DNA of 64,000 nucleotides from Thermoplasma acidophilum DSM 1728. GTDB lineage: Archaea > Thermoplasmatota > Thermoplasmata > Thermoplasmatales > Thermoplasmataceae. Under the pieces are notes generated by a model. That model worked only from the letters and a program-made list of their open reading frames with translations. It did no database searches and was not told the DNA's origin. The first letter of the stretch is position 1; every line of letters starts with the position of its first letter. A program made the translations under genes and the position numbers. Positions 8,051 to 46,417 of the stretch are shown here, piece by piece. The DNA lies in contig NC_002578.1 of NCBI RefSeq assembly GCF_000195915.1, positions 186,001-250,000 on the forward strand, in the 5' to 3' direction.

Positions 8051-8108
8051 GCATGTCCATATCGAATCATATGCATAAGCTTTTTACCGGTTCTTTTATA
8101 TGGTTATT

Positions 8109-8410
8109 GCCAGACTTGGCCGGGGGGTTAGGCGTCCCCTGTACCCGAAGTCTAGATGCGGGGGCGACAGCCCGGTGAGACCACCTGGGTTTCTGCCAGG
8201 CCCTGCGGAATCAATGATCTCCTGTCCCTCTGGATCGGAGGCCCATGGACACGATCTCAAAGGAGAACGCGCCCATGGCTTGCCAGGGGAACGCGCCAGG
8301 CCCGGAAGGGAGCAACGACACCCTGGACTCTCGATGCTGGAGGGGTGCGGGGGTGAGAGGAAACAGGGGGTACCTGACAGGACGCCCAGACCGAACCGGG
8401 TGTGTCTGGC
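8109..8410 (+). ncRNA. Signal recognition particle (7S) RNA
   Basis: About 302 nt of very GC-rich sequence in an AT-richer genome. The helix 8 signature is unmistakable: CCAGGCCCGGAAGGGAGCAA, with apical tetraloop GGAA at 8304-8307 and the AGCA side of the SRP54 binding loop just after. The ends pair as helix 1: GCCAGAC at 8109-8115 with GTCTGGC at 8404-8410. GGGGGGTTAGGCGTCCCC near the 5' end forms the helix 3/4 region seen in archaeal SRP RNAs. The RNA scaffolds SRP19 and SRP54 for co-translational targeting to the membrane. A TATA-like TTTTATATG lies just upstream (8094-8102). The next gene starts only 12 nt after the 3' end. Confidence 0.93.
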
Positions 8411-8421
8411 TTCTGATCGGC

Positions 8422-46277: not shown

Positions 46278-46417
46278 GGGGACATGGGGTAATGGCATCC
46301 TGACGGGCTCCAGTCAGGAGATGATTAGAAACAGGGTCATCTGATTTGATGATGAGTGACTGGAACTATGATCCAGGAAGAGACCCGTAGATCTGGGTTC
46401 AACTCCCAGTGTCCCCA
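46278..46417 (+). tRNA. tRNA-Trp (CCA) with a 69-nt intron
   Basis: The mature tRNA of about 71 nt comes from exons 46278-46313 and 46383-46417. The acceptor GGGGACA pairs with TGTCCCC, followed by discriminator A; the D stem is GGGT/ATCC; the anticodon stem is ACGGG/CCCGT; anticodon CCA is at 46310-46312; T stem CTGGG/CCCAG encloses TTCAACT. The intron follows position 37, the canonical place for archaeal introns removed by the splicing endonuclease at a bulge-helix-bulge. A two-base TG between D stem and anticodon stem is slightly unusual. Exact splice points could move by a base. Confidence 0.92.
46314..46382 (+). ncRNA. Box C/D guide RNA within the tRNA-Trp intron
   Basis: The intron contains ordered elements of a box C/D guide: C-like ATGATTA (46321-46327), D' CTGA (46341-46344), C' ATGATGA (46349-46355) and D-like ATGA (46368-46371). 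TGACTGGA (46357-46364) is fully complementary to TCCAGTCA (46309-46316) of the unspliced precursor, placing C34 five nucleotides from box D. GGGTC (46334-46338) pairs with GACCC (46382-46386), placing C39 five nucleotides from box D'. In Haloferax the homologous intron guides methylation at 34 and 39, as I recall. Confidence 0.75.

Follow-up and report, generated by a model that had tools for sequence, protein, structure and literature searches.

A predicted dual box C/D guide in the tRNA-Trp intron of Thermoplasma acidophilum, with an apparently compensated box C/box D pair

The intron of the tRNA-Trp(CCA) gene of Thermoplasma acidophilum is very probably a functional dual box C/D guide of the type known from archaeal tRNA-Trp introns. 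It is a sound member of a class whose function is already known, and its kink-turn pair, compensated between box C and box D, is possibly a small addition to that picture.

The gene, its boxes and its guides

The gene lies in the window, the whole stretch of 64,000 nucleotides that was analysed, in a genome consisting of a single contig of 1,564,906 bases. Infernal placed a tRNA with a large insertion in its anticodon loop at 46278–46417 (+); ARAGORN, at default settings, did not report this tRNA-Trp gene, presumably because of its intron. An archaeal signal recognition particle RNA is encoded elsewhere in the window, at 8108–8411 (+; 187 bits). The guide is located in the 37/38 intron of tRNA-Trp(CCA), as in the type described by Clouet d'Orval in 2001, and the features are arranged as follows.

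46278–46417, plus strand: tRNA-Trp (CCA) gene with intron (Rfam tRNA model RF00005, 48.8 bits, E 5.5e-9)
46278–46313, plus strand: 5' exon, read from the sequence; anticodon CCA at 46310–46312, C34 at 46310, G37 at 46313
46314–46382, plus strand: intron of 69 nt at the canonical 37/38 site (after G37), containing the box C/D guide
46317–46319, plus strand: 5' strand of the kink-turn C-helix, GGA, partner of 46372–46374 (covariation)
46321–46327, plus strand: box C, ATGATTA; its sixth base, T46326, is position 4b
46334–46338, plus strand: D' guide, GGGTC; its partner is 46382–46386 (GACCC, last intron base to position 41), with C39 at −5
46341–46344, plus strand: box D', CTGA
46349–46355, plus strand: box C', ATGATGA
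46357–46364, plus strand: D guide, TGACTGGA; its partner is TCCAGTCA at 46309–46316, across the 5' splice junction, with C34 at −5
46368–46371, plus strand: box D, ATGA; its first base, A46368, is position 4n, partner of T46326 in box C (4b-4n covariation)
46372–46374, plus strand: 3' strand of the kink-turn C-helix, TCC (covariation)
46383–46417, plus strand: 3' exon; A38 at 46383, C39 at 46384

The four boxes had been proposed from the letters of the sequence, in order, at 46321, 46341, 46349 and 46368, and these coordinates hold to the base. Both guides satisfy the fifth-nucleotide rule, C34 being counted from box D and C39 from box D', as the same sequence-only reading had it. The C34 duplex has 8 bp, from U33 to intron position +3, and reaches over the 5' splice junction by 3 bp; the C39 duplex has 5 bp and reaches over the 3' splice junction by 1 bp. 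When the intron dinucleotides were permuted with the real exons kept on either side, an 8-bp D guide in register arose by chance in 90 of 200,000 shuffles and a 5-bp D' guide in 407 of 200,000. Both guides in order arose only once in 200,000, in agreement with the proposal of a dual guide for positions 34 and 39. The Rfam models of the archaeal C/D sRNAs sR3 and sR20 match the intron at 46317–46373, with scores below their gathering thresholds. Elsewhere in the genome TGACTGGANNNNTGA has two other exact matches, both without a box C', and no further, independent copy of the D guide with that box was found.

Pairing across the splice junctions

Covariation was followed in 131 distinct introns, chosen by a pattern that required CTCCAG, TGATGA and CTGGA, so that lineages with other boxes are under-represented. 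Intron position +1 and guide position −9 form T-A, A-T or C-G in all 131, +2 and −10 are paired in all 131 with six pair types including wobble, and +3 and −11 are paired in 123, wobble included; +4 and −12 showed no correlation in these introns. Because the sampling pattern fixed CTGGA alone, pairs +1 to +3 constitute an independent test. They provide direct evidence, at the level of sequence, that the unspliced precursor would be the substrate of the C34 guide, as had been proposed for this duplex, and that the duplex would as a rule have 8 bp in the sampled introns.

On splicing, the C34 duplex loses three of its eight pairs and its calculated energy changes from −13.3 to −7.7 kcal/mol, while that of the C39 duplex is −10.0 kcal/mol before and after. 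Given that the last intron base and G37 are both G, GACCC is present on either side of the splicing step, and therefore splice dependence, on pairing grounds, concerns C34 alone. The idea that methylation precedes splicing thus stands for C34, but C39 is not forced to come first by pairing alone. The requirement itself, offered by the sequence-only reading as its own, had already been published (PMC2584109).

Could the intron be an ordinary one, its complementarities serving only to form the bulge-helix-bulge for splicing and not methylation? Introns at 37/38 need this motif, bases 32–35 must be able to pair with the 3' end of the intron, and a bulge-helix-bulge-like fold can be drawn here. 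However, the one version that could be drawn has a bulged A in its 4-bp helix and falls some 6 kcal/mol short of the best cloverleaf fold (−44.5 versus −50.2 kcal/mol). A role in splicing alone also leaves unexplained the four ordered boxes, the fifth-nucleotide register at two sites, the way in which +1 to +3 co-vary with −9 to −11 and the co-varying kink-turn considered below, and we regard it as extremely improbable. Free-energy folding of the naked precursor, suggested earlier as a check, returned competing hairpins as the best folds, with no kink-turn; the kink-turns of box C/D RNAs are reported to require protein for folding (PMC5689011).

For the intron as a methylation guide, a sub-question is whether it works in cis only, on its own molecule. 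Guide and target share one transcript, and the earliest proposal was indeed cis action (PMC7994747). Judged from the coordinates, however, cis action would make each guide duplex cross the C/D kink-turn and would also make the two duplexes cross one another. This agrees with Haloferax, for which in vitro work is reported to favour action in trans (PMC2584109, PMC5372725). Action exclusively in cis is, in our view, unlikely.

The kink-turn pair and the non-consensus box D

Box C and box D each have a single non-consensus base, and the two bases pair. They form the 4b-4n pair of the kink-turn, between the sixth base of box C and the first base of box D, which are T and A here. In the kink-turns of archaeal box C/D RNAs, 4b:4n is reported to be strongly conserved as G:C (PMC5689011); the U-A pair is a real departure from that published norm, yet, judging from the sequences, a compensated one. 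When box C was selected regardless of its sixth base, 4b-4n was U-A in 94 of the 131 introns, G-C in 12, C-G in 9, A-U in 2 and something else in 14. In 5,000 shuffles, which ignore kinship, the number of Watson-Crick pairs averaged 78 and never exceeded 92, as against the 117 observed. U-A is the usual 4b-4n pair in this tRNA-Trp intron family, and each alternative has lineages of its own: family f5, the Aciduliprofundum group and Methanocorpusculum use G-C; C-G is found mainly in family f7, which has halophiles among its members, and in part of f17; and A-U occurs in one genus.

Other kink-turn elements were followed in the 102 introns that have TGA in box C. Within this limited set, all 102 keep the tandem G-A and A-G pairs, 3b:3n is U-U in 93, and C-helix pairs −1 to −3 are Watson-Crick in 83–92%, with covariation. 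These features point to a C/D kink-turn with tandem sheared G-A/A-G pairs and flanking helices. The predicted motif resembles the Archaeoglobus fulgidus type (PMC5689011) in its three-base bulge, tandem sheared G-A/A-G pairs, U:U at 3b:3n and short C-helix, and differs from it in having U-A at 4b:4n.

The T. acidophilum copy had earlier been described as degenerate on account of its ATGA box D and 5-bp D' duplex. It would then be a former guide, weak or inactive, with at best one site methylated. Box D is indeed ATGA and not CTGA, box C is ATGATTA and not RTGATGA, the pair that they form is not the G-C whose strong conservation is reported for archaeal box C/D kink-turns (PMC5689011), and the shortness of the D' duplex counts against a functional guide; a relative, L018, has lost more, with ATGTTTA as box C and AAGA as box D. 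However, the two odd bases pair mutually and occur together, as a fixed combination, throughout the family; G-C, C-G or A-U stands at the same place in other lineages; and the sheared G-A pairs are invariant in the set limited to TGA-containing boxes C. As for the D' duplex, in introns that have a CTGA box D' the pairing frequency at each of positions −3 to −7 is 87–97%, and −8 and −9 are often unpaired; a duplex of five pairs is common in the sample. Covariation speaks against a degenerate box D, the common length in relatives against a degenerate D' duplex, and on both points the earlier description was wrong: ATGA together with TGATTA in box C makes a compensated kink-turn pair, and 5 bp is a common length. 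We consider a degenerate former guide highly improbable. In L018, which shares its genus with L019, the sheared G-A pair is broken, making it a candidate case of genuine decay.

It is possible, though doubtful, that in most of the Thermoplasmatota sampled the intron guide traded a near-fixed G-C for U-A, or in some for C-G or A-U, as a pair perhaps more easily undone when the precursor refolds for splicing. If true, the U-A form would represent a kink-turn variant characteristic of a whole lineage, one that would be overlooked by consensus scanners.

Distribution, proposed mechanism and meaning

The tRNA gene is 98–100% identical in all four same-genus genomes, and the intron is recognisable throughout the family and the order. 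The sequence-only reading had named lack of conservation in other Thermoplasmatales introns as a finding that would speak against it; of 51 complete genomes from the order, 43 contain the exact pattern (CTCCAG, box C', guide core and box D), as do 150 of 284 genomes of the phylum sample, with no matches to a reversed control pattern in either search. Among named genomes, the guide pattern matches Methanomassiliicoccales, Poseidoniales, Aciduliprofundum, Methanocorpusculum, Asgard-group and Micrarchaeota contigs, as well as some bacteria, where the matches look like chance. An intronless tRNA-Trp pattern was found in only 15 of 284 phylum genomes, several of these looking like chance, which suggests that few members of the phylum have a tRNA-Trp gene without an intron. 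In families f11, f40 and f41 almost no genome carries the guide pattern (one does in f40), the intronless pattern is also absent with few exceptions, and in f11 a looser tRNA-Trp pattern gave no match.

Several introns depart from the common layout. Those of L118 (a Micrarchaeota contig), L144 and L159 have a C34 guide in register, pairing over the junction, and no recognisable D' guide for position 39; they are perhaps single-guide versions. The tRNA-Trp introns of L055, L056 and L047 (Heimdallarchaeota, Freyarchaeota and Jordarchaeia contigs) carry a C34 guide with which the junction bases, although different, still pair; the D' guide has 7-bp pairing in L056 and does not fit position 39 in L047, and a literature search for tRNA-Trp intron guides in the Asgard group found no report. 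L077, L094 and L112 lack a CTGA box D' and contain a long GC-rich hairpin that separates the D' guide from box C', as though a stem had replaced the kink-loop. One genome holds two tRNA-Trp intron copies 1.8 kb apart (G067:C10:116398–116460 and 118231–118293), which differ by one base of the D' guide, GGTTA versus GGTCA.

In Haloferax and other euryarchaea, tRNA-Trp introns have been described as box C/D guides for C34 and U39 (PMC11408192), and a review table lists Cm34 with Um39 or Cm39 (PMC6313347). Such an intron guide is reported in at least 29 archaea, together with the statement that methylation must precede splicing (PMC2584109); it has been described for most euryarchaea (PMC5372725), and the earlier remark that the function is known for haloarchaea was correct but too narrow. 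The Haloferax system was shown experimentally (PMC11408192, PMC7994747, PMC5372725), and deletion of the intron abolished both methylations without a growth defect (PMC11408192). Like Haloferax volcanii pre-tRNA-Trp (Cm34, Um39), that of T. acidophilum has a dual C/D guide in a 37/38 intron, aimed at the same two positions, with a partly intronic target, so that methylation would have to come before splicing (PMC2584109). Unlike it, the intron has 69 nt and not 103 nt, position 39 is C and not U, the box C/box D pair is U-A in place of the usual archaeal G-C, and the guide is predicted and not experimental. By description it can also be likened to Pyrococcus sR50, a tRNA-Trp intron that is at the same time a C/D sRNA targeting its own tRNA (PMC7994747).

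Genes for fibrillarin, a Nop-domain protein, L7Ae and one tRNA-splicing endonuclease are present in the genome, and from homology we infer how these might act. L7Ae would bind the C/D kink-turn and the C'/D' kink-loop, after which Nop5 and fibrillarin would join. C34 would then be 2'-O-methylated under the direction of the D guide, and C39 under that of the D' guide, on the same precursor or, more likely, on another one, and the splicing endonuclease would excise the intron afterwards. Our literature search found no modification data for T. acidophilum tRNA-Trp, and the paper on tRNA methylation in this species does not treat tRNA-Trp (PMC4307237). In Sulfolobus acidocaldarius tRNA-Trp a C/D-guided methyl group at C39 was predicted and not detected, and thus a predicted methylation need not occur (PMC7668247).

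Across much of an archaeal phylum, self-guided tRNA methylation via the unspliced precursor is supported by covariation and not by mere resemblance. A box D that departs from consensus can still be sound if box C compensates for it, and this is relevant to programs that identify C/D RNAs, or judge them decayed, by RUGAUGA and CUGA alone.
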